From: Patiria pectinifera
Taxonomy: Eukaryota; Echinodermata; Asteroidea; Valvatida; Asterinidae
Length of the DNA stretch: 64,000 nt
Direction: 5' to 3'
Assembly: GCA_029964075.1 (NCBI GenBank)
Contig: CM057129.1
Location: 25,597,430-25,661,429, forward strand
Shown here: in pieces, positions 11,653 to 64,000 of the stretch
Layout: each line of letters starts with the position of its first letter
Numbering within the stretch: position 1 is the first letter of the stretch
Notes under the pieces: model-generated
What the model saw: only the letters and a program-made list of their open reading frames with translations
The model's database searches: none
Told to the model about the DNA's origin: nothing
Made by a program: the position numbers and the translations under genes

Positions 11653-13026
11653 ATGAAGGCAACTATGTACAATTTTACAGTTGAAGAAAGACAGGGGCAG
11701 GTTGATTTTGTCATTAAAGCGCAGCAAGTCATCGATTCAAGTCTTCTTGCTGCTCAAATCATTTCGCCAATCGGTCTCATCTTAAACTTTGCCTTCATCT
11801 TTGTCATAGCGCGAGTGAAATCAATGCGAACAATCATCAATGTCTACTTGACCAACCTGGCAGTGGCTGACTCCATTCTTCTTCTCATAGCACTGATTTC
11901 ATCATCAACACCTCTGGATAGAGAAACTCAACGACTGAATTCGATTATAATTGCATTAGTGAATAGCACAGGGCGTTATGCTTCTTATTGTTTTGTGACG
12001 GCCATAGCAGCGGAAAGATTCTCAGCTGTGCATCATCCAATTCAGTTCAAAGCAGTGGCTAGCAAAACTCGAGCTGCCAAGATATCTGCAGGACTTTGGG
12101 TTCTGTCAGTTGTGTTGGGAGTGATTTCATCACTTCTAAACTACCCAGAATTTGCCTCAGACGATATCCCAACTATTAGGACTTGCTTCACAATATTTCA
12201 CACACTGTCCCTGATATTCTTGGTATCAACTTTTACAGTCACTGTGTCTGTGTACATCTACATTCTGATAAAGCTACGGCAACCAACGACTGCCTCACAG
12301 CAACATCCACAGCCATTCGGCAAGGTTGCCCGTATGTTGGTTATTAACACTGCTGTGTTCTTCCTTTTAAATTTGATGCGAATTACCCGGACAGTCATGG
12401 CCATTGTATTACTGTATAACGAAGACCCACAATATAGACTAAATACAGTAAAGGTAATCGTAAGTGCAGTCATCTTGGAACTGATCAACAGTTCCATCAA
12501 TTCCCTTGTCTACAGCGCCACCAACTCCGCCTATCGAGCTGCTGTAGTTGAAGCGTCCTCTTTCTTAAAATGTGTTCGCCGCTGCGAAAGTCAAACGCAT
12601 GCAGCACCACAAGCAGTGAGGGAGCAGGTAGACCTAATTGCTATCGGGCCTAAAGATGCCACACCCAAACCAGTACAGATTCAGGTACAACCGTCTGCAA
12701 TTCGGCCAAGGGATGCAGCTCAAGAACTTGTACAGGAGCAGATAGAACTGTCTGCGATTGGGCCAAAGGATGCAGCTCAAGAACTTGTACAGGAGCAGAT
12801 AGAACTGTCTGCAATTGGGCCAAAGGATGCAGCTCAAGAACTTGTACAGGAGCAGATAGAACTGTCTGCAATTGGGCCAAAGGATGCAGCTCAAGAACTT
12901 GTACAGGAGCAGATAGAACTGTCTGCGATTGGGCCAAAGGATGCAGCTCAAGAACTTGTACAGGTGAAGATACTACTGTCTGTGATTGGGCCACAGGATG
13001 CAGCTCAAGAACTTGTACAGGAGTAG
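11653..13026 (+). CDS. Atypical single-exon rhodopsin-class (class A) GPCR with a repeat-encoded tail
   Basis: 457 codons in one exon. The N-terminus has an NFT glycosylation site. Seven hydrophobic segments follow: TM1 about 32-54 (N45), TM2 66-85 (NLAVAD, D73), TM3 97-119, TM4 142-163 (W149), TM5 179-206, TM6 225-254, TM7 265-290. ERF (121-123) replaces DRY. The TM3-start cysteine position is serine 97 although a loop-2 cysteine (C178) remains. TM6 lacks CWxP, and TM7 has NSLVY instead of NPxxY. C307/C311 could be palmitoylated. From residue 355 the tail is repeats of a 19-aa unit (AAQELVQEQIELSAIGPKD), and the TAG stop lies inside the array. A peptide-receptor-like orphan is likely; the ligand is unknown. 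The ATG at 11653 is the first in the frame; Met5 is an alternative. Confidence 0.85.
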   Translation: MKATMYNFTVEERQGQVDFVIKAQQVIDSSLLAAQIISPIGLILNFAFIFVIARVKSMRTIINVYLTNLAVADSILLLIALISSSTPLDRETQRLNSIIIALVNSTGRYASYCFVTAIAAERFSAVHHPIQFKAVASKTRAAKISAGLWVLSVVLGVISSLLNYPEFASDDIPTIRTCFTIFHTLSLIFLVSTFTVTVSVYIYILIKLRQPTTASQQHPQPFGKVARMLVINTAVFFLLNLMRITRTVMAIVLLYNEDPQYRLNTVKVIVSAVILELINSSINSLVYSATNSAYRAAVVEASSFLKCVRRCESQTHAAPQAVREQVDLIAIGPKDATPKPVQIQVQPSAIRPRDAAQELVQEQIELSAIGPKDAAQELVQEQIELSAIGPKDAAQELVQEQIELSAIGPKDAAQELVQEQIELSAIGPKDAAQELVQVKILLSVIGPQDAAQELVQE

Positions 13027-13922
13027 AGAGAACTGTCTGCAATTGGGCCAAGGGATGCAGCTCAAGAACTTGTACAGGAGCAGATAGAATTTTCTGCGAT
13101 TGGGCCAAAGGATGCAGCTCAAGAACTTGTACAGGTGAAGATACTACTGTCTGTGATTGGGCCACAGGATGCAGCTCAAGAACTTGTACAGGAGTAGAGA
13201 GAACTGTCTGCAATTGGGCCAAGGGATGCAGCTCAAGAACTTGTACAGGAACAGATAGAATTTTCTGCGATTGGGCCAAAGGAGGCAGCTCAAGAACTTG
13301 TACAGATGAAGATACTACTGTCTGTGATTGGGCCACAGGATGCAGCTCAAGAACTTGTACAGGAGTAGAGAGAACTGTCTGCGATTGGGCCAAAGGATGC
13401 AGCTCAAGAACCTGTACAGGAGCAGATAGAACTGTCTGCAATTGAGCTAAAGGATGCAGCTCAGGAACTTGTACAGGAGCAGATAGAACTGTCTGCGATT
13501 GGGCCAAAGGATGCAGCTCAAGAACTTGTACAGGAGTAGAGAGAACTGTCTGCAATTGGGCCAAGGGATGCAGCTCAAGAACTTGTACAGGAGCAGATAG
13601 AACTGTCTGCAATTGGGCCAAAGGATGCAGCTCAAGAACTTGTACAGGAGCAGATAGAACTGTCTGCAATTGAGCTAAAGGATGCAGCTCAAGAACTTGT
13701 ACAGGAGCAGATAGAACTGTCTGCAATTGGGCCAAAGGATGCAGCTCAAGAACTTGTACAGGAGCAGATAGAACTGTCTGCAATTGGGCCAAAGGATGCA
13801 GCTCAAGAACTTGTACAGGAGCAGATAGAACTGTCTGTGATTGGGCCAAAGGATGCAGCTCAAGAACTTGTACAGGTGAAGATAGAACTGTCTGTGATTG
13901 GGCCAAAGGATGCAGCTCAAGA
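12712..13922 (+). repeat. 57-bp minisatellite with a 171-bp higher-order unit
   Basis: Twenty-two unit starts (gatgcagctcaagaa) fall exactly every 57 bp with no length change, preceded by one degenerate unit at about 12655. Each unit is 19 codons in the GPCR frame. In four units CAG is TAG, at 13024, 13195, 13366 and 13537, spaced exactly 171 bp (three units). This shows spread of a three-unit block. About seven units after 13539 are free of stops, and the frame then closes at a TGA at 13942-13944. Confidence 0.95.
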
Positions 13923-14189
13923 AGGAGGATCCAAAGACACTTGATCACCAGTGTGAGGTTAGTCTAATAACATCGGAGGAACATCACGTACAGAAAAATC
14001 CCATTATCAGTATGCTGTTAACATTATAGTAGGAAGTATTTTCACCCGTCCCTAAAGTTTCTGCGCAACTAAAATGTCTGCGGCTTCACACTTCATTCAC
14101 TACCAAATCCATTCCTGTTTGAATTCGGAAGTTTGTTAACACAGAGCTTATGCGTTCTAGGTATCTCTGAGGGCGTTCTTTGTTTTATC

Positions 14190-18761: not shown

Positions 18762-19551
18762 TGTCGGACGCTTCGCCCCATTTCCACGTCGCCCCATGTC
18801 ACTTCGCCCCTAATCACTTCGCCCCATCCCCGCTTCGCCCCATCCCCGCTTCGCCCCATCCCCGCTTTGCCCCATCCCCGCTTCGCCCCATCCCCACTTC
18901 GCCCCATCCCCACTTCGCCCCATCCTCGCTTCGCCCCCATCTCCACTTCGCCCCATCCCCACTTCGCCCCATGTACATGTAGATTGGTTCCTCCAAGAGT
19001 GAAATTAGGATGTCAAAGGTATTGTCGTTCTCAGATATAAAGTGGGAGACGAGTCAACATGTATATACATCCGGGTTGGGAACAAAGTTGGATCTTTTTT
19101 TTTTTACTTCAAGCTTTTTTTCTCGGTAGGGATTGAGAGTGATAGCTTGAGAGTTGGTTATGAATTGTTTATTCGGTCAATGTTGGTGCATGACTTCCTC
19201 CATGGTTGGTGGGCTAATTCTTTCCGTTGGTTAGCAATTAGTGAATCTGTTGGAATTGTTTTTAAGCCAATAAAATTAGATGAGATTTTTTTTTTTTTTT
19301 ACATGTAACAGCTAGGGCGAAGTGGGGATGGGGCGAAGTGGGGATGGGGCGAAGTGGGGATGGGGCGAAGTGGGGATGGGGCGAAGTGGGGATGGGGCGA
19401 AGTGGGGATGGGGCGATGTGGGGATGGGGCGAAGTGGGAATGGGGCGAAGTGGTTAGGGGCGAAGTGACGTGGGGCGACGTGGGAATGGGGCGAAGTGGT
19501 TAGGGGCGAAGTGACGTGGGGCGACGTGGAAATGGGGCGAAGTATCCGACA
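18762..19551. mobile_element. Foldback element made of inverted arrays of a 16-bp repeat
   Basis: Left arm (18765-18972) is a tandem array of cttcgccccatcccca in plus orientation; right arm (19315-19546) is the same array inverted. The arms share the ordered variant units (tttccacgtcgcc, then tgtcacttcgcccctaa) and the outer end TGTCGGA(C/T)(G/A)CTTCGCCCC. About 340 bp of AT-rich DNA separates the arms, and its edges (tacatgta) are also inverted. The open frames here are repeat translations, not genes. No TSD was found. Confidence 0.75.
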
Positions 19552-19899: not shown

Positions 19900-21433
19900 T
19901 AGCTGGAGTTACCCTAGCCCCACTAGTGTGGCCGTCGGTATGCTGCGCTGAACCTCTGGCCACACACCGTGGTACCGCGGGCTACTGAGGACGAAGTTTT
20001 CATAAAATCTGCGGTCCGTTTCTTACATTCTCAGTTTCTTAATTTCTTATGGTTGTATTCTATGATGTCTCACCTATCACTTCTGAGATGCTTAGGGCTA
20101 ATGATGTTCCATTTACCGAGATATTCTTCAATCTTTCTGGAGCCCACATCAATATGCACTCGTGAAACGTCTGGCGGTGATGGCAGCCATTTTGAATGTG
20201 TCAAGAGATGACCTCAAGCTGTGACGTCGCGTTTATGCAAATCACTTGTCGAGCGAGGGCGCGAGTTGCAAATGCGACGGCTGTTTCCTGTACCATGCAT
20301 TTATCGTCAGGGGGCCACGTGCACTGATCTCTATTCAGGATCTACGGCACAGGAAACAGCCGTCGCATTTGCAACTCGCGCCCTCGCGCGCTCGACAAGC
20401 GATTTGCATAAACGCGACGTCACAGCTTGAGGTCATCTCTTGACACATTCAAAATGGCTGCCATCACCGCCAGACGTTTCACGAGTGCATATTGATGTGG
20501 ACTCCAGAAAGATTGAAGAATATCTCGGAAAATGGAACATCATTAGACCTAAGCATCCCAGAAGTGATAGTTGAGACATCATAGAATACAACCATAAGAA
20601 ATTAAGAAACTGAGAATGTAAGAAACGGACCGCAGATTTTATGAAAACTTCGTCCTCAGTAGCCCGCGGTACCACCATGACCACGGTGTGTGGCCAGAGG
20701 TTCAGCGCAGCATACCGACGGCCACACTAGTGGGGCTAGAGTTACCCAGCCCTGAGTTTTATCATTGGGTTGTCTATAATAAGGGCTGGAGCTAGTTTTT
20801 CTCGTAAACGATAGTATAAGCAAAATTTTTTGGAAAATGTTGAATTTTGTCCCCGTTACACACTAATTGCAACTGCAACTCACCCCAAACTTGCCTGGAA
20901 TAACCATTACACAGGTCCTTGAAGTAAAAAACGATCCACGATGAAGATTCAGCCTACAATTGCAGTGAAAACAGGAGGAATAACCGCTAACCTGACAACC
21001 TTACGGGCATGGCCAGGATCGTAATTGGTTTGTGCACAAAAAAAAATTGTGTTCAATGAATGGCGGTTGGTTACCGGTACCAGGCTGTCAACTAGTCGTT
21101 TTTGCCGGCTGGCGATTGGCTGTTGGCGCATGACGTCACGCGGAAGTGTAACACCCGATGACTGTTTCATGCACTCATATTAAGTTTACCATTCGCATCA
21201 CAGCTGCGGTACTGGAACCGCAACCGATCGTGGATTGTTTTTTACTTCAAGGACCTGTGTAATGGTTATTCCAGGCAAGTTTGGGGTGAGTTGCAGTTGC
21301 AATTAGTGTGTAACGGGGACAAAATTCAACATTTTCAAAAATGTTTTGCTTATACTATCGTTTATGAGAAAAACTAGCTCCAGCCCTTATAGACAACCCA
21401 ATGATAAAACTCAGGGCTGGGTAACTCCAGCTA
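19900..21433. mobile_element. Element Y: long-TIR foldback transposon with 9-bp TSD (MULE-like), carrying nested element X
   Basis: Ends TAGCTGGAGTTACC and the inverted copy; the arms continue as CAGCCCTGAGTTTTATCATTGG for about 200 bp on each side (20747-20950 and 21225-21433). The flank atggcgcag occurs at 19891-19899 and again at 21434-21442, a perfect 9-bp TSD. Without the inserted X it is about 700 bp. A 9-bp TSD with long TIRs fits Mutator-like foldback elements, but no transposase is present. Confidence 0.8.
19914..20738. mobile_element. Element X: 825-bp near-perfect palindrome nested in Y, 8-bp TSD
   Basis: Begins CTAGCCCCACTAGTGTGGCC and ends with its inverted copy. Arms of about 380-390 bp flank a loop of about 55 bp (about 20292-20346). 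Perfect 8-bp TSD gagttacc at 19906-19913 and 20739-20746; this octamer belongs to the TIR of Y, so X jumped into Y. Each arm contains gtgacgtcgcg and atgcaaat, mirrored. The ORFs at 19969-20211 and 20433-20684 are the same arm read on opposite strands. Confidence 0.85.
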
Positions 21434-33704: not shown

Positions 33705-36700
33705 CCTTCACCGACGTTTTTTATGTTTATGCGGTACCCGCTGCTATGTACATCAGATTCGAACCGGCCAACCGATCCCGTTAGCTCGGTGGTCGAGTGG
33801 TAAGACATCTGCACTAGAAAGCAGGAGGTCGTGGGTTCGAGTCCCACCCGAGTGATTTTTTCCAACTTTCACTCGGGAGGTAACACACTGAGTATACAGT
33901 GTTTAAAAAACGTCGGTGAAGGGCAAAAAACCTAATTTGATTTAAGTCACTATTTATATCAGATTTGAACCAGGTAGCTGATCCAGCAAGCTTGGTTGAT
34001 TGGTAAGGCATCTGCACTAGTTAGGAGGTCATGGGGACAAGTCCCACCCGAGTAAGACCTCGGACAACATTGAGAACCCTGTGTTTATGAAATTTCAGTG
34101 GTGAAGGGCAAAACCCAATATTTAACTTTATATAACTGACATACAGATCCTTGCCATTTGATTGATGGAACTCACATCACGTGACATTCTTTATTGCTCC
34201 CATTCACGTCAGGGCTCAGAAAGTCCCATTCGCCCGTGGTGAATGGGATTTACTATTCAACAGTTAGGATCATCTTTGTTCCATGACACGGTATTTGTGG
34301 GCAAATGCATGCTGGTGTGCGCGTTCAGCGTTGCTCATAGTGCGTATTGTTCCAAAGAGCCAGTGCTACAGAGTTCATTTTAAACATTTTCGTGAAGGGG
34401 TGGTTTGGAAGAGAGAAATACATTTTCCACTAATTTTGTATTGAATAAAAGTTCCAATGTATCAAATGACAAGGATCTATATGTCAGTTATATAAAAAAA
34501 AATATTGAGTGGCTTGAAATTGTGAAATGGGAGGAATATTATCGCTCGGTAAAATCTGGACTTTTCCAGTTCACTCGGCTCTGCCTCGTGAAAAAGAAAC
34601 GTCCAGATTTTACCTCGCAATAATATTCCTCCCATTCCACCCTGAGCCACTCAATACTTGTAAACTAAAGTTGATCAAGTACTTTATATCATGTCGTCTT
34701 TTCCTTGCAGGTGTATTCAGACTGCCTGGCGCAGTCCATATTCGCTGGTTATTGGGAAGCATTCATTGATTCACACAAGACGTTTGATGCAAATTTCAAG
34801 CAGAAAGTCGCAACAATGTGCAGTGAATGGGTGGCAGGTAAAACCACTTTTCTTATCTAAGTTTGTTTTACTTTTTTTTTTCCATGGTGACCATCTCAAG
34901 ACTTTTTGAAAGCAAAAGTTGTAAACAAATTGCTTCAAATTGTTTCATGCAGGACATGTTTAACACTTGTTGACTGCTGTGATGTGTGATATGACATGGC
35001 TTCTGTTTTTTTTACACCAAATGGGCACTTGGACCCAAGGCTAAGATTAGCATGTCTGGTAATGGGCTCCGTATGTAAACTAGAGAGGGCACTTTTTGAC
35101 CATTTTTGAAAGCTCCAGTGGGGGACACACTGCATCTTGCGCGTACTAGTTCATGCGCGTACTAGTTCATGCACGTACGGCAAGAAGTATGCATGTCTAT
35201 TTTTATTCTGAATGCACATAAAGCCAGCGTCTTTGCTTGAGCATCAGGCGTCGTCAGCAATGCTTCTGAATGTCTCTCCCAGTGGTCTCCCCCAACTCTC
35301 CATTTACTGTTGAGGGGTTCTTGTGCACGGAGCCCATATTTACTGCTCAAGGGATTATTTTAAAGATTCAAGGTTTGCATGTTTATTTGGATTCTTGTCC
35401 CTGTTGTAGGTATCAAGCCCGGGCCAGATGCTTGGAGTCATTGGGATGTCAAGCGACTTCAACCGAAGAGCATGAACAAAGAGAAGGAGGAAGATAAGAA
35501 GAAAGTAGTGCTGATGAAAGAGGGAAAGATCAACAAAGAAGGTGAGGACTAAATCAGGAAATATATAGAGGTTGTACCGTGTAAGGCGTCAACCCTACTC
35601 CCCACTCCACACCACCCCAACACCACCCCTGGCAGAAGAAAGTGGTAGAAGAAAAAAGAAAAAGAAAGTAGTGCTTATGAAAGAGGGAAAGATCAACAAA
35701 GATGGCGAGGACTAAATCAGGAAATACATAGAATACCGTTTAAGGTGTCAACCCTACTCCCCACTCCACACCTCCCCAACACAACCCCTGGCAGAAGAAA
35801 GTGGGAAAAGAAAAAAGAAAAAGAAAGTAGTTCTGATGAAAGAGGGAAAGATCAACAAAGAAGGTGAGGACTAGGTCAGCCTGGTATACAGAGAATAGAC
35901 AGGTGTAGCCTCCTGCCCACTCCAACCCCACCCAAACCCACCCCACCCCACCCCACCCCTGGCAGAGGGAAGAAGAAAAAAAGTAGTGCTGATAAAAAAA
36001 GGACAGATCAACAAAGAATTAAAGAACAGGGAATTCTTAGCAGGTTGACAGGTGTAGATACACCAGATCAGATGTCACATGATCAGTGTTTTAGACGAGT
36101 CCATCATAAGTCCATCACAAGTCTATCGCTAGTCAATCATTCTCAAGTCAATTTGTGCACAAGCTACTGGGATGATCTGTGAGAAAGGCATTGCTTTGTT
36201 GTTCATTCCCTGACACTTATTGAGTATTGCTGCCACAGTTGGGATGGAGCTTCTGCCTGTCACTGACAGTTGGGGTGGAGTTGGGCTCGTCATTACAGCC
36301 TCTTCCCCACCGTAGGTCTGTTGCCACCCTCTGTCTGTTGTACAGATATTTTCATGGTCATAGCTCCACTAGTATGTCCAACCTGGTTCCTCCAATCAGA
36401 GTGTTTGAGAGAGAAACTCGGCTTTTTACCTGTTCTCATCCATACACTGTTGCAGTACCTAGATACAGAACTAAAGGATATTCCAAAAGGTTTTTCCCGG
36501 ATCTTTCTCTGGGAGCCCACATGGGGCACTGCCTCACGTGGGAGAAGAAATCTCTCCTTCGTGGACATGCTGAAACGGAACACCAGCTTGACCACTGCTG
36601 AGGAGCTGCACTCTTGCATGCTGGACTGGGACATCTGGACCGAGATCATCAGGAGGGCTCGAGCTGCCAAAGGGCCTCGACTTGATTAATTGAAAAGCTT

Positions 36701-45727: not shown

Positions 45728-48700
45728 TCAGAGAGAGGTTTCGGCGTCCAGTTGGATGATATTGGCTCCGTTGCCAGGCTCGGTAGCAAACAAACTCTCC
45801 TGGACACGTCCCTGTAGCTTGGGATCAGCTGCGTAATACCCAGCATGCACCTTGCTGATGAAGTCATCAACACCCTCGGATGGTACCATGGAAACGGCGC
45901 ATCCACCCCAACCAGCGCCTGTCAGACGGGAGCCCAATGCCCCAGAGTTTCTGTTTCAGTGGAAGTAAAGAAAAAGAAATTATTGATTTGAATGATTCTC
46001 CATCTCCAGCTAACATTCTCAATCCACCTAGCATCCTGTTCCCTATGCTCCTCTCTCCACCAAGGCTGCTGGTTAAGTTCTGCATCTCCAGCAGGCTGGC
46101 AGTTTCTCCTGAAGACAAACAGGATGCTCTGTTCACAACCAATTGTTCTAAGAATCGGACAACTCGTACCAAAATTTGCAGAGAACTTTGAAGAGATTCA
46201 TTCGTTTAGATGGACCCAAAGAGCCATCCTGCTGTACTCTTAGTGATTGAGTAACTGACTGACTGACCATGTCTGTATGAATCATGTCCTAAACTGCCAT
46301 CAGGCAAGCCGTTGTCTTTTTGTCCTTAGATTGTCAAATGCCGAGCAAAAACCGCCTTGTGCTACATTGATATAGCAGCAGTTTGTATGACAACTCACAA
46401 GTCCTCGCTGGGTAGCAGCATCAGCCTACAGTCCCCCCTCCATTCACTATTTACGCATTGCCTCACCCACTCCCTAACCCACTCACCTGCACAGCTCTAC
46501 TAGTGGATCTAACAGTTCACAGCTACATTAATACAAGTCTCTGCAGCTTGTATGGCCATCGCATATTAGTCATGGCCGTTGCTCATGAGTCCTAGCTAGG
46601 TAGCATTAGCCTACCACCCACCCACCAACTATCCACCCACCACATCGCCCCTCCCACTTCACCCCCTAACCATCTCACCTGCAGAGCTTTACTAGTTCAC
46701 AGCTACATTGATACAAGTCTCGGCAACTTGTATGCCTCTTGAGTCATCCTAGCTGAGTAGCAACATTAGCCTACCACCCACCCAGCATCTATCCACCCAT
46801 CGCCCCTCCCACCCCACCCCACCCCATCTACTAACCAACTCACCCGCAGAGCTCTACAAATTGATCTAGCAATTAAAATTTACATTGATACAAGTCTCGA
46901 TAGCAGAGTTGTAACGAGTCACTGATTTTTGTGACTCGAGTCGAGTCATTTTAAAGAAGTGACTCGAGTCAAGTCGAGTCATTTTAAAGAAGTGACTCGA
47001 GTCGAGTCAAGTCATTGGATCAAAAGGTCGAGTCGAGTCGAGTCGAGTCAAATATTTAGCTCGAGTCAATTCGAGTCACTATTATTTGAACACTATCTAT
47101 ACCAAAATTTATAAAAGGAGGCCATAAGTTTAGCCAGCGTTCGAATCCAAGAACTTTATAAGAAATTGCCCAAAACCAATGATGAAACAGCGAATTAGAA
47201 TATGTGTTTAAAAATCTGGTTCCTGGATAGTATTTTGTGCGTTCTAGAACCATGAGGTGGGAGTCTGTGACACGTATATTTGTACATGACTGCTATTCGC
47301 AAAGTAAAGTGAGCATAAATTTTGCACCGTAAGTCATTGCAAATACTTTTCGCAGGGTTGCGCTTTTATTTTTGGGAGTCGAGTCTTATTAGCCTTCACT
47401 CGAGTCAAGTCGAGTCTTCTGATGAGGGACTCGAGTCGAGTCAGGTCATTTGCTCGCAGTGACTCAAGTCGAGTCAAGTCATTTACCCTTTGGGACTCGA
47501 GTCACCAAAAATTGTGACTCGAGTCGGACTCCAGTCTAGTCATCGACTCGAGTCATTACAACTCTGCTCGATAGCCTGTACGACTGTCACTGATGAGTTG
47601 TCCTAGCTGGGTAGCAGTATCAGCCTACCACCCACCCACCCACCAACTATCCAGCAATCGCCTCACCCACCCCGCCCCACCCTCTAACCCACTCACCTGC
47701 ACAGCTCTACAAGTTGATCTAGAGGTTCACAGCTACAAGTCTTGACAGCTAGTATGACCATCACTCCTAGAATCATAGCAACATAATAAGCCTACCACCC
47801 ACCCACTGACTATCCACCAATCGCCTCAACCACCCCACCCCACCCCATCCACTCACCTGCAGAGCTCTACTAGTTGATCTAGAGGTTCACAGCTACACTG
47901 ATACAAATCTCGGCAGCTTGTATGACTATCGCTCATGAGTGCTCCTAGCAGAGTAGCGGCATCAGGCTACCACCCACCCACCAATTATCCACCCCACCCC
48001 ATCCACTAATCCACTCACCTGCAGAGCTCTACTAGTTGATCTAGAGGTTCACAGCTACACTGATACAAATCTCGGCAGCTTGTATGACTATCGCTCATGA
48101 GTGCTCCTAGCAGAGTAGCGGCATCAGCCTGCCACCCACCCACCAACTATCCACCCCACCCCATCCACTAATCCACTCACCTGCACAGCTCTACTAGTTG
48201 ATCTAGAGGTTCACAGCTACACTGATACAAGTCTCGGCAGCTAGTATGACTATCGCTCATGAGTCCTCCTAGCAGAGTAGCGGCATCAGCAGGTCCCTGA
48301 TCACAAATCTCCTTGAATTTCACAACTCGGTTTGCTTCACCAAACACATGCTTGGCACGATCATGCAACTTGAACGAAGTGACTGTAAAATCAGAGGTTT
48401 GGAAATGGACAAAGTATCAGTGATCTGGCTGAGAAACGCAGTGAAACTATTATTTATTTTAAACAATTTCTGTTAAAAAAAACATTTCCTGATCAACCTT
48501 TTCCAAATACTGATAGATGCCAAAGATAGAAAATTGACAAATATAGTCAAGAGAGGGCGCTGTTTGAAAACTTTTGAGAGCCGAGTGGACAGGACATACT
48601 GCATGCGCGTACTGGTTCGCGTACTAGTGCGCAGTACCCACGACTAATTGTATTCTGAATGTTCACAAAGATAGCATCTTCGCGTGAGCATCAGGCGTCG

Positions 48701-51700
48701 TAAGCAATGCATCTGAATGTCTCTCCCAGTGGTCTCCCCCAACTCTCCCATTCTTGTCATTGAGGGGGTACTTGTGCACGGAGCCCATACACAACTCACA
48801 GACCCAGACCCACTCATAGAACGAACACATGAACTAAGAAAGACAACACTGCCAATTTTTTTTTTAGCTTGTCGTTTTTTAAGCTTTAATGCTCCAATTC
48901 AATTCCCAATTTAAAAGATTTCAGTGAAGGCGTCTTGTGAGTCGGCAATCTTCTCACCTTCCAGTGTGTTCTGGCTCAGGCTCTCCTTGTTCAACTCCTC
49001 TTCCGACACCCCAAGGATGTCACAAACCTCCTGTTTGCTGTACGGCTCAAGATGCAGCACATCCTCCACAATGCTCAACATGTCCTCCGAGGAGACTCCT
49101 AGCGCCTCTTGTAGCTTGGCTAACACCTTAAGCTGCTTCCAGTCTAATCCTTTAGCCTTGGCCAAGACCTAGTACAAAAGGATTGAAAATATACAAAGGG
49201 GGCCATGATCCCCCCCAAACGAACCCAATTTTTTTTTTTCTTAAGTGATGTCGCAAATTTTTTTGTTTAAGTTGTCAGAAATAGCATCAGTTCGCACCAC
49301 AGAGCATCTAGAATCCCAAAAATTTACAGGGCCCTTAAGTGGGCCCCAAACCCTACGCCGTAGCTTTTTGGACTCACTTTTTTGGGGACCAAATTTTTTT
49401 TTACCTACCCCCAAAATTGTGTTCTGGATCCACCCTTGCAGGAAACTCAACAATGTCTTGAAACTTTGCCACAGTTTGATTTTGGTTAAAAATGGATTTA
49501 TGCCATGTTTTTATTGGTTATGAAAGTTTGACCCTATTTTTCACAAACTGGCTGCTATGGTAACTCTACCTGGGTTGCTAGGCGACACTCAACCACTCTG
49601 ATATTGAAGTGAGACGTTGCAGCTTTCTGTAATTCCACGCAACTATTGGAGATGACAAACGACACACCAGGAGGTATGGAAACGCTGGTGGCTCGGATGG
49701 GGTTAAACTGGATCCACTTGGCCTGTATGTGATCAATATTGGATAAAAAAATATTGATACAACTGCAGAAATGGGTTGTTGCATGAAGAATTAGAGAAGC
49801 TTTTAAAACGTTTCTGTTAAAATAAAATATCCGGTCTTAATTTATCATTTTGACATCGGGTCACTCTGTTTATCATTTAGGTATTTTGAATGGACTATTT
49901 TGACAAACAATTAGAAGCCATTTTTCAAGGGGCATCACGTTTGCGCTCATGCCACACGCAATCTTAAAGACGAAGCACGCCTACATTTTGGTAACACTAT
50001 TGGTCGAAGGAGCCCGGAGTGCGTGCGTATTACCTGAGCGCAATTCGCTCGAGTTTGGCGCCATCTCAGAAAATGGCTGTCGCCGAATTAGGTACTCGGT
50101 AGCATTCTATTGTCTGTTGTTTTAGCTGTTTTTCCTTTTTACCTCTTTGTTTTTACCCGTTCACCACAAGACATGTTTTACAATGAAAGGAGTTGACAGT
50201 TCAGCAAAATGATTCAATGTCTTAAGGACATTTCATCTATCTTTACTAAAATTCATAAAATATTCGAAAATGAAATGAAAAAAAGAGACTCACAGTTCCA
50301 GTTTCCGCCAGGAAGCAGATAGATTGATCCATACCACCGCCTTGAGTGCCAATATAACGCTCACATCTCATACAGATATCTGCTAATTTCCTCTGAATTA
50401 AAACAAAAATAAAGGTTATCATTACTTAGAAGAGGATGGGATGAATTTTAACGTATTCGTGAGTAAGTATTAAAACCACCTCATCTCAAAATTTCAAATG
50501 TTCTGCTGCGAGTACAGCCGATAAGCCCCCAAAATTTAATTTAATTAATTTGGTCGCATTTGCCAGACAAACATTTTTTACTTGAAAGTCACCAATTGCC
50601 AATAAGCCATTTGAGAGTGACCTATACCCTTTGGGATTTAAATTTGAAAAACGTCTGGTACACTGACTTGCTCAGAATGCTTAGCACATTTTAACTGTGA
50701 ATTCTCCAGACCAAAGACACCGTTGCTAATCACATGATTTGGGGCAAGCTCTTGCATAGTTACGTAAGAGTCCCTCAGCACCAATACATTGTTCACAATG
50801 GGTGAGAATGGCACAAAGACACCAGACCATACCGGAGCTGGGGGTTGCTAGTATAAAGCTTGCCTCGAATCACGTGATATAGTAACAGTCTCTTTGATCG
50901 GGTGAATGTAAATGTAACTCATGCAAAGCATTGGATTAAGTCAGCGTTCCAAATATTATTCAAATGTAACTTGCAAATGGCTTATTTCTATGTGATACTT
51001 TTGCCCAGGTTAAGGGGGGGGGGAGAGGGAGTTGGGCAGGCAACTCTAAACACACCCTATAATCTGCCCATGGATCAGGACCTATTTCAGCAAAGACTGT
51101 TACACCTACCTTAGGTATCTCCAGCCCATTGGCATGCATAGTGACCAGACTACTACAGCACACCAAGGCACTAGAGCTAGACAGACCAGCACTGCGTGGG
51201 ACGATGCCATCCACCATCAGGTTCATACCAGACGGTGTAGATACACTCTCGGCTTCTACGATGCCTCGAAAGCCACACAGGATGTAGTTATGCCATAGAG
51301 GGTTGCTGGGATCGATCTTGTAGTCTTCAGTGCTTGATGTGAAATCCCTATCGGAATTGAGAAAATCACACAAACTGTTTTATGAGAAATAATTTAGTTT
51401 CAGTTTTTTTCTTTCTTTTTTCTTGTGTAGGTAAAAAGAAGAAGCTTGTTTTGGGTAATCATGTAGTTTAGGACACATCTGTGTTTTACAAATTCTATTC
51501 AGTAATTAAAACCCTGCCCTTTTTCCACAAAACATAGCTAGCTCTTAGCGAACTATTTAGATGATTCTTAACACATAAAGGGACTTTTCCTGCTTGTATC
51601 ATAGCCAAATGTTGTAAGTCCCAAAACATTTTCATTCTCTTATATGGCGGGGTCCTAAACTACATGATTACTATACCTTTGTTTTATTATTTTAAGGCTT

Positions 51701-52833
51701 ACATTTGTTTTATTTAAACTGGAGGAACTGGGGATGTACTAAAAAATACACAAATCAAAACAAAACAAAGCCCCAAAACACAAGAAAAAAATAAGCAGTG
51801 CTGTCAAGTTAACTCCCCCCCCAAAAAAACCACACCCCCCCCCACAAAAAAAACCCACAAAACATACTATAACAAAAACTGATAAACAACATGATACAAT
51901 GCCTTACTTGTATTCTGGATTTGTATTTTTGAAGTCAAGTTTCTTATCTGCATTTGGTCCGGCAGCGATCACGATGTCTTGTTGAATGGCCATCGGTAAG
52001 ACAGAATAGCCACAGTAGTCTATATGCTCACCTGAGTGTATTTAGTCAGATTGGGAAAATGGTTTGACATGTTTAAAATTTATTTGAAAGGACTGCAGTT
52101 GTTTTTCCTATGTAGTATTTGTTTTTACTTGACTTCACATTTAAAATTAGACCAAGTAAAAAAATAAAATACTTTTTCGTCCTGGCTTTTTTTCATTTCT
52201 TTTTCCCTAAGATGGCAGATTTTCCCAAGATGGCGGCCCACTGATCTCCATTATATAACAATTCTTCCATTTTCCCGACTCTTTTGCTGAAACACAGTTG
52301 TGTCCAAAGGAGCCGTCACCTTTTCTACATGGCTACAATTTTGCTGGAAACAAATACATGGACAATATATTGACAACATTTGCAAAATATATTGCAAATG
52401 TAATAAAAAAGGGGCAGGAAACAGGAAATGGGCAGGGAAAAGAAATTGGTATATGTTTTTTACTTGGCCTTATATGAAAATAAATAACTGTGTAACAAAC
52501 TAACACGTTATTACATTTCCGTCTAGGAATCTTTTTTGATTTTTAATTAATATAATAATATTCTTACCAATTATATTGACTCGTCCAGGTGCTCTAGCAA
52601 AAAAGGCTGGCTCTGTACCAAAACTCTCAATGTACAGCTTTCGGATGGATTTATACCTGATTGATAAATATTAAAAATATAACTAGACTAGATTCACTTT
52701 CATGACTTTCAGCACAATGACAATGGCAGAATTTTCATCTGCCCGGTTTTGCAATTTATTTCACCTACCTTTCTTTTTGTGAGCTTGGAACTTTTGTTAC
52801 AATCTCGGGACAATCTCTAGGATTTCCAGCCAT
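45728..52833 (-). CDS. GALK2: N-acetylgalactosamine kinase / galactokinase 2, 9 exons, 467 aa
   Basis: Exons (minus, 5' to 3'): 52833-52769, 52656-52568, 52031-51908, 51347-51110, 50392-50294, 49722-49570, 49168-48958, 48382-48181, 45950-45728. All have GT-AG sites and joining phases, total 1404 bp. GHMP-kinase motifs are complete: [20 protein letters not shown] (about 43-62), GLSSSSALV (147-155), GGGMDQS with the likely catalytic Asp194, and [12 protein letters not shown] (400-411). It transfers phosphate from ATP to GalNAc (and galactose) in cytosolic amino-sugar salvage. Length is close to the human enzyme. The Met at 52833 is chosen by alignment; an in-frame ATG at 52962 would add a stretch unlike the family. 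The final intron (2.2 kb) holds the exon-8 copy array. Confidence 0.95.
46384..48128 (-). repeat. Tandem decayed copies of the GALK2 exon-8 end plus 5' splice site
   Basis: Copies of the last ~110 bp of exon 8 with its donor lie at 48128-48019, 47967-47857, 47790-47697, 47624-46844 (split by a hAT MITE), 46770-46679, 46610-46487 and a stub at about 46427-46384. Six keep a usable G|GTGAG donor. Each is preceded on the minus strand by a G/T-rich stretch ending TAG or CAG. Divergence rises with distance from the real exon. The copies are out of phase with exons 7 and 8, so inclusion would bring early stops. Confidence 0.85.
46904..47566. mobile_element. hAT MITE packed with GACTCGAGTC, inserted in an exon-8 copy
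   Basis: Ends CAGAGTTGTAACGAGTC and inverted CAGAGTTGTAATGACTC; perfect 8-bp TSD ctcgatag at 46896-46903 and 47567-47574. 663 bp. Both subterminal zones are arrays of gactcgagtcgagtca; the middle is AT-rich and non-coding. It interrupts one decayed copy of GALK2 exon 8, so it is younger than that duplication. Confidence 0.85.
48540..48800. repeat. Dispersed repeat, copy 2 (GALK2 intron 7)
   Basis: Homologous to 35060-35350 (agagagggcgctgtttgaaa region, gcgcgtactggttcgcgtac, gagcatcaggcgtcgt, gtgcacggagcccata). Nothing coding seen. Confidence 0.65.
49195..49438. mobile_element. hAT-type MITE, CAAGGGCGGATCCAG family, copy 3 (left-truncated)
   Basis: The right end ttctggatccacccttg and the body (gcaccacagagcatctagaa, gggcccttaagtgggcccc) match copies 1 and 2. 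The left TIR is lost, leaving gggggccatgat. It abuts the GALK2 exon 7 acceptor, about 26 bp away on the intron side. Confidence 0.75.
49723..50293. other. GALK2 intron 5
   Basis: Nothing recognisable except a GC-richer patch at about 49930-50110 with ctcagaaaatggctgtcgcc, which looks like a start-codon context but stops after nine codons. No feature is assigned. Confidence 0.4.
50393..51109. other. GALK2 intron 4
   Basis: AT-rich with a G-rich run near 51014. No element boundary or extra exon seen; the open frame at 50902-51114 is not family-like. Confidence 0.4.
51348..51907. other. GALK2 intron 3
   Basis: Low-complexity, with long A/C runs near 51825-51860. No gene or element identified. 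Confidence 0.4.
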
Positions 52834-62619: not shown

Positions 62620-64000
62620 CTGTTCATTTTCGTTCACCAATGCCTCCCCCGCGTAATTTACGATTCATTCCACCCACCCGTCCCGATAGGCCAGTGAAGT
62701 TGGTGAAAACACAGAACTATTAGCTTTTAAACACAGAACTTTGTGCTATATAGTTAAGCTTTATGCTAAAATCTTTATTTCTTAACCATTACAACTATTT
62801 CTATTTCTGAATAGGGACTTGCTCCGTCAGGGAAGGCCTTGATGTGCATGCAAAAAAACGTGCCACCTGCCTGTTATAGCTCTCCATTTTTGTCTTAAAC
62901 CACTTAGATGCTTCGTTTCATCCCTGTCTTCAATGACGCCCGGCAAGAGGCAGGTATGACCACGTAGAGGGATCATATTACAAATGCTTTCAGTGCTTCT
63001 TCTGACGAGGGTGGGACCAAACATCGTGCTCTTCGGAGCAGAAGAAGGATCTTGAATTCTGGAGGATTTTAAATCAGGATGCACGCTGGATGATGCCCGC
63101 ATACGAATCTCGCGATGATGTATTTGGTACATCTCGCTCTTTCTCGCGGGATTTCAACACAGTTTTTGCCGTCTCACCCAACAATACTGAATAAAATCTG
63201 ACTTGATTCGGACGGCTTTCGTAAGAGTTTCAGAGCGAGTGTGCTAAGCCGACAAAGAAAGCAACAAATCCAGGCGGGATTGCACTTGGGCTTTTTGTTT
63301 AAATGAGTTTCTCAATACTAAAAAGAAAACAGCGATATTTTCGACACTTGCATCGCTCAAAAAAAGGAAACATTTTCATGCTGTCTAAGCTCCCAGCGGA
63401 GAGAAGATGACGGTGTGCAATCTGCATCTGTTCATTCTCGTTCACCAACGCCTCCCCCGCGTAATTTACGATTCATTCCACCCACCCGTCCCGATAGGCC
63501 AGTGAAGTTGGTGAAAACACAGAACTATTAGCTTTTAAACACAGAACTTTGTGCTATATAGTTAAGCTTTATGCTAAAATCTTTATTTCTTAACCATTAC
63601 AACTATTTCTATTTCTGAATAGGGACTTGCTCCGTCAGGGAAGGCCTTGATGTGCATGCAAAAAAACGTGCCACCTGCCTGTTATAGCTCTCCATTTTTG
63701 TCTTAAACCACTTAGATGCTTCGTTTCATCCCTGTCTTCAATGACGCCCGGCAAGAGGCAGGTATGACCACGTAGAGGGATCATATTACAAATGCTTTCA
63801 GTGCTTCTTCTGACGAGGGTGGGACCAAACATCGTGCTCTTCGGAGCAGAAGAAGGATCTTGAATTCTGGAGGATTTTAAATCAGGATGCACGCTGGATG
63901 ATGCCCGCATACGAATCTCGCGATGATGTATTTGGTACATCTCGCTCTTTCTCGCGGGATTTCAACACAGTTTTTGCCGTCTCACCCAACAATACTGAAT
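62620..64000. repeat. 808-bp direct duplication running off the window
   Basis: 62620-63192 and 63428-64000 read the same apart from two T/C differences in the first 25 bases. The offset is exactly 808 bp. The unique part of the unit is 63193-63427. Both copies contain the same 101-codon minus-strand open frame (63132-62827 and 63940-63635), which has no recognised family and may be chance. Either a very recent tandem duplication, the two long repeats of a young element, or an assembly join. Confidence 0.85.

Follow-up and report, generated by a model that had tools for sequence, protein, structure and literature searches.

A tandem array of exon-end copies with retained donor motifs in GALK2 intron 8 of Patiria pectinifera: a probable mirage-type minisatellite

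In a stretch of 64,000 nucleotides of the Patiria pectinifera genome (hereafter the window), intron 8 of the GALK2 gene holds a tandem array in which the end of exon 8, its splice donor and the beginning of the intron are repeated. We consider it very probable that this array is a mirage-type minisatellite, most likely the neutral debris of frequent tandem duplication, and that splicing proceeds on the true, exon-defined donor. Slippage or unequal exchange, in a genome with abundant local tandem duplication, would have both produced the array and driven its turnover, with no selection for the copies. Correct splicing would persist because the authentic acceptor of exon 8, which lies 202 nt upstream of the true donor, would define the exon jointly with that nearest donor, while the decoys would have no usable acceptor. 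A decoy donor could then come into play only if exon 8 were extended through an in-frame stop formed at its own end, which would give a truncated and probably degraded transcript.

Results and Discussion

The GALK2 gene and its intron 8 array

The minus strand of window positions 45728-52833 carries a nine-exon GALK2 gene with a product of 467 aa. The exons were located by tblastn, with human GALK2 as the query, and their ends were read off the sequence. The top solved relative of the product is N-acetylgalactosamine kinase (2a2c; 571.7 bits vs 225.5 for the runner-up), and Pfam matches place galactokinase and GHMP domains in the predicted protein. An earlier annotation made from the letters alone (the sequence-only reading) had named the gene, the exon and the intron correctly, as GALK2, exon 8 of nine coding exons and intron 8.

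The array lies on the same strand at 46355-48290 and consists of the true copy (c0), six full decoys (c1 to c6) and a partial copy (c7), as listed in Table 1. Together with an inserted element, the copies make up 1826 of the 2230 bp of intron 8. Each of the seven full units, which were compared by script along with c7 after removal of the inserted element, combines a stretch of 92-124 nt that corresponds to the exon-8 end with 52-73 nt of intron; in the true copy, 110 nt belong to the exon, about as the sequence-only reading had estimated. GGTGAG is kept in all seven full copies, so that the claim of six decayed copies with an intact G/GTGAG donor holds for 6/6 full decoys. The complete true 9-mer, CAG/GTGAGT, is unchanged in four of the six decoys, and the remaining two have CGG/GTGAGT and CAG/GTGAGA.

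Table 1. Features of the GALK2 locus, the second array in the window and boundary repeats elsewhere in the genome. Positions are those of the window unless a locus is named; donors are given by their first intron base, and unit lengths are those with the inserted element removed.
Feature	Position	Strand	Details
GALK2 coding exon 8	48181..48382	minus	202 nt; acceptor ttttacag/TCA, donor CAG/gtgagt
Exon part of the repeat unit	48181-48290	minus	last 110 nt of exon 8
GALK2 intron 8	45951..48180	minus	2230 bp
GALK2 coding exon 9	45728..45950	minus	holds a 12-letter protein stretch, lost on decoy-donor use
c0, true copy	48129..48290	minus	162 bp; exon end, true donor at 48180, G-rich intron start
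c1	47967..48128	minus	162 bp; 96% identity to c0; donor 48018
c2	47792..47966	minus	175 bp; 93% identity to c0; donor 47856
c3	47625..47791	minus	167 bp; 86% identity to c0; donor 47696
c4	46771..47624	minus	183 bp; 80% identity to c0; interrupted by a transposon; donor 46843, CGG/GTGAGT
c5	46611..46770	minus	160 bp; 85% identity to c0; donor 46678, CAG/GTGAGA
c6	46426..46610	minus	185 bp; 73% identity to c0; donor 46486
c7, partial	46355..46425	minus	exon part only, without donor; 67% identity to c0 over 55 bp aligned; distal end judged by eye
hAT-like element, inside c4	46904..47566		663 bp; ends CAGAGTTGTAA/TTACAACTCTG
Second array: exon end, donor and intron start	35409..36020	plus	period about 159 bp (153-163 between donor sites)
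CCT3 exon and three intronic copies of its end	L079:26-797, contig C1		GTAAGA donor each
Acceptor-side copies of exon starts, in upstream introns	L018:1656-1740 and 1867-1949; L042:168-354; L049:15-326

When exon 8 was compared with the window by blastn, seven additional pieces were found (E 4e-59 to 2e-6). The remaining eight GALK2 exons showed no matches in the window besides themselves, and a chance origin of the copies is excluded because exon 8 alone matches extra pieces. When a single unit was compared at the DNA level with the assembly, which comprises 613.5 Mb in 1020 contigs, it gave seven matches, every one at the GALK2 locus. Both the sequence alignment and blastn therefore show that the proposed array of about seven tandem copies, each with the exon-8 end and its donor, is real. 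The interval given for it by the sequence-only reading stood as far as the array is concerned and is refined here, in that it also takes in a 663-bp hAT-like insertion and a partial copy that extends the array to about 46355. The rise in divergence away from the exon was likewise correct overall, with the exception that c5 stands above c4 in identity to c0 (0.85 and 0.80).

Insertion and duplication history

The element inside c4 is flanked on either side by a perfect 8-bp target duplication (CTCGATAG), and its terminal inverted repeats start with CAG. These features fit a hAT-like, putatively non-autonomous element; CAG-type ends with an 8-bp target duplication are the hAT signature. For the middle of the element (47100-47380), 1034 candidate places were listed across the genome, and all 40 of those that were scored match at 91-100% identity, its own copy included. 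GAGTC/GACTC motifs are abundant towards both of its ends. Because the element sits within c4, the insertion is younger than this copy.

The intron parts of c0 and c1 differ by two substitutions in 52 without gaps, and these two copies have in common an 11-column gap that occurs in no further full copy. In the exon parts, c1 and c2 differ by one substitution in 110, and c0 and c1 by four. The simplest reading of these counts, small as they are, is that the youngest duplication would have been a 162-bp block, made up of an intron part and the next exon part, which lies wholly within the intron and excludes the true exon. This speaks against the suggestion that the duplications were seeded at the exon boundary, although the substitution counts are small.

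Other repeats in the window

The second array listed in Table 1 likewise repeats an exon end with its donor and intron start. Its first two extra copies have the form of in-frame, phase-symmetric exons of 69 nt that encode lysine-rich repeats (ESGRRKKKKKVVLMKEGKINKD); their acceptors are CAG, with pyrimidine fractions of 0.65 and 0.59. One of the two has a GC donor, and in the third extra copy the donor is lost. The intron parts are C-rich on the sense strand. As to the gene, a Pfam search of two exons gave no match, and a search of one exon for solved relatives gave none. This array is possibly the nearer case to intron gain by tandem duplication, in the form of exon gain.

Repeats of other kinds were also observed. 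At 12682-13923, a 57-bp unit (a multiple of three) is repeated about 22 times and continues the reading frame of a rhodopsin-type GPCR with a 19-residue repeat, for example DAAQELVQEQIELSAIGPK. Two arrays of a 16-bp repeat, at 18771-18972 and 19315-19543, are mutual reverse complements, and near-identical reading frames adjoin them in opposite orientation at 19927-20211 and 20433-20726; the paired arrays and frames between 18771 and 20726 are probably large inverted repeats. Near the end of the window, identical 108-residue reading frames at 62827-63153 and 63635-63961, 808 bp apart, form a direct duplication.

Boundary repeats elsewhere in the genome

As exon controls, we used 52 of 211 listed matches (12 of 20 for tektin, 30 of 61 for Cpn60 and 10 of 130 for kinesin), which we chose non-randomly from the match lists, with the GALK2 exons excluded. 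Direct repeats that overlapped the match were sought over a reach of 300 bp (to one side of L039, 200 bp) and were counted if they had a length of at least 50 bp and a period of at least 50. Qualifying repeats were found at five of the 52 controls (L018, L042, L047, L049 and L069), and the same test on random DNA gave 23 of 227 tiles from 19 sampled 10-kb stretches (Fisher p = 1.0). Without the cut on length and period, the counts were 6/52 vs 33/227 (Fisher p = 0.66), the added control being L007, which has a 36-bp repeat at the end of an apparent terminal exon. Local tandem repeats thus overlap exons about as often as they occur elsewhere in the genome. Because the rate at exons is that of random positions, the exon-intron boundary is no special seed, and this counts further against the boundary seeding that had been proposed for GALK2.

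The repeat at L047 is intronic only. At the other four controls the copies cross a boundary, in three of them with more than 20 nt of exon. On the acceptor side, 7 nt of exon are copied at L018 (tektin), 55 nt at L042 (CCT3) and 26 nt at L049 (kinesin); on the donor side, 102 nt are copied at L069. L042 and L069 belong to one gene. L069, extended as L079, is the CCT3 exon VPGGTIEDSR...GESQ of T-complex protein 1 subunit gamma. The array there was found without regard to donors, and GTAAGA is nevertheless intact in all three copies, whose identity is 77-85% with gaps scored as differences. Use of any of these decoys leads to a stop shortly past the true donor. The CCT3 array repeats the anatomy of the GALK2 array. 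Given that CCT3 is a core chaperonin subunit, such arrays seem compatible with expression, and the GALK2 locus would clearly exemplify a habit that this genome tolerates, not a one-off.

A simple pattern for the donor consensus occurred in none of 14 tandem-repeat rows of period at least 50 in the 190 kb sampled (19 stretches), which speaks against a wide spread of donor arrays. The kinesin matches with overlapping profile ranges on contig C17 (L038), which are outside the 52 controls, have no boundary copy. A scan by eye of the Cpn60 and kinesin match lists for tandem pairs found none; it missed L042 and L069, which were found by DNA comparison, so that it is not evidence. We also considered a nucleosome-sized unit, which was suggested by the 162- and 159-bp arrays of the window together with the 150-160 bp of amphioxus globins. 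This idea was dropped, since the boundary repeats of the controls have periods of 104, 117, 211 and 186, and those at random positions vary from 64 to 423.

Boundary-crossing copies at 4/52 controls correspond to an exact 95% interval of 2-19%, and 3/52, the count when a minimum of 20 nt of exon is required, to 1-16%. It is a tentative proposal, at somewhat less than even chances, that several per cent of the exons in this genome have their own splice boundary copied in tandem within the intron, often with the signals intact, and that some arrays, such as that at 35409-36020, are becoming in-frame exons; the copies at L018, with 7 nt of exon, make it a little less likely. If the proposal is true, then the true splice sites of a whole animal genome are accompanied by many near-identical decoys, which would amount to a natural experiment, massively parallel, on how the spliceosome recognises the right site. 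If the arrays are as common as this small sample suggests, a single RNA-seq data set would test splice choice at many natural decoys, and it would also reveal how exons and introns are gained from tandem duplication in hosts other than cephalochordates.

Possible use of the decoy donors

We asked whether the decoy donors are conserved beyond expectation. GGTGAG is the sole 6-mer of 157 that is intact in all six GALK2 decoys, and six columns drawn at random were all intact in 0.3% of draws; this 6-mer was chosen post hoc, however, and the copies share their history. The conservation of GTGAGT in GALK2 is matched by 6% of windows, and that of the donor in CCT3 by 13%. An excess in donor conservation was therefore dropped as an explanation, being strong for the post hoc GGTGAG alone and neither for GTGAGT nor for CCT3, so that special conservation of the decoy donors by selection is at most weakly suggested.

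From any of the six decoy donors, exon 8 is extended across a TGA formed at its own end, and translation stops at residue 394 of 467, upstream of the 12-letter protein stretch in exon 9. This common stop, and the retention of GGTGAG in every full decoy with the true 9-mer in four, would suit a role of the decoys as regulatory poison sites, at which a share of GALK2 transcripts would be spliced and degraded so that expression is tuned. We consider such a role unlikely. The retention of the donors is at most weakly above the overall similarity of the copies, CCT3 has an identical layout, and exon matches are overlapped by repeats no more often than the background.

It is less likely still that the array was selected for the G-run splicing enhancers, of the hnRNP H/F type, that each copy would carry and that would strengthen the true donor. 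Every intron part is indeed G-rich on the transcribed sense strand. However, intron 8 has just two four-run G-quadruplex motifs, and the C-rich intron parts of the neighbouring array indicate that the feature is not general.

We give very little credence to tandem alternative or mutually exclusive exons, in which each copy would be a whole exon with an acceptor of its own, even though an AG precedes each decoy, GTGAG ends each full decoy and the neighbouring array at 35409-36020 does resemble such exons. The exon parts of c1 to c6 are 110, 110, 95, 110, 92 and 124 nt, none of which is divisible by three. As cassette exons, the five decoys that the script could match, which are all but the insert-bearing c4, stop at residues 399-400. 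The would-be acceptors are G-rich, with a pyrimidine fraction of 0.18-0.29 upstream of the decoys (7 sites) vs 0.53-0.76 at the eight true acceptors. Thus, of the features expected of tandem alternative exons, triplet lengths and pyrimidine-rich acceptors were not found at GALK2, nor were open frames in the five decoys tested; given the G-rich sites before them and the early stops, the decoys do not appear from their sequence to be exons. The phase incompatibility of the copies described in the sequence-only reading is borne out by both outcomes, that is, the stop at 394 from 6/6 decoy donors and the stops at 399-400 in the five of six decoys that are testable as cassettes.

False duplication or mis-joined haplotypes in the assembly would be a far-fetched source of the array: c0, c1 and c2 are 93-96% alike, as the alleles of a very heterozygous animal might be, but such an error is unlikely because the copies hold private substitutions and indels (the others being 67-86% identical to c0) and one holds a transposon with a clean target duplication, and the one-unit search of the assembly led to the GALK2 locus only.

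Under our preferred reading of the array as neutral debris, the choice of the true donor has still to be accounted for. The decoy donors with the same 9-mer sit 162, 324, 484 and 1694 bp inside intron 8. Because four of the six decoys carry it, donor strength alone cannot account for correct splicing, and the choice would depend on position and exon definition. Competition of the true donor with up to six decoys, as put forward by the sequence-only reading, is conjectural at the RNA level, and the regular splicing of amphioxus genes with such arrays is reported to be undisturbed (PMC3087553, PMC3902484). We infer faithful splicing at the true GALK2 donor because of exon definition and because of these amphioxus reports.

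Comparison with known systems

The closest known structures are the mirage minisatellites of amphioxus, which PMC3087553 and PMC3902484 describe for Adh3, TnC, the globins BflGb6 and BflGb9, and PGBD5. In the globins, the units are 150-160 and 157 bp, and splicing was found to be regular by RT-PCR (PMC3087553; also PMC3902484). As in these mirages, the tandem unit of GALK2 spans a real exon-intron boundary, the authentic boundary stands at one end of the array (c0) with the copies c1-c7 inside intron 8, and the splice signals are kept in many copies (6/6 full decoys; c7 is without donor). Many amphioxus copies keep AG/GT, and both donor and acceptor sides are affected there, as they are in this genome. 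Our reading of the youngest block in GALK2 also agrees with BflGb6, in which the array edges escape homogenisation according to PMC3087553. The two systems differ in that the host here is an echinoderm and not a cephalochordate, and in that one GALK2 copy bears a hAT-like insertion. Among three tektin exons of the host, two fit the chains of 8snb, from sea urchin sperm, best (203.5 vs 129.8 bits and 171.8 vs 136.4 bits), and the third fits tektin-3 of the mammalian 7rro best (131.6 vs 104.5 bits for 8snb). A search for the GFP family, in which no control responded and which therefore does not demonstrate absence, gave no match, and neither did COX1 as a mitochondrial marker in the assembly. 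In addition, regular splicing and length polymorphism are described for the amphioxus mirages, whereas the GALK2 array is known from the sequence of one assembly.

Among echinoderms, repeats in an immune gene family of sea urchin are the subject of PMC5103432; a search by title and the start of the abstract, with most subscription papers outside it, found no report of mirage-type arrays in this phylum.

Two other systems share parts of the structure. The internal tandem repeats of human segmental duplications (PMC2812944) are likewise expansions of boundary minisatellites that alter gene structure; however, their units average 30 bp and they have transcript-backed new introns, whereas the GALK2 array offers no new intron by sequence. 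In the model of intron gain by tandem genomic duplication (PMC3443670), duplicated segments with splice signals are also the raw material. That model has an exonic AGGT duplicated so that its two copies become both splice sites, whereas the GALK2 copies lie in an existing intron. The structure itself is thus already known, as the mirage minisatellite; what is new is the host, the frequency estimate and the GALK2 locus.
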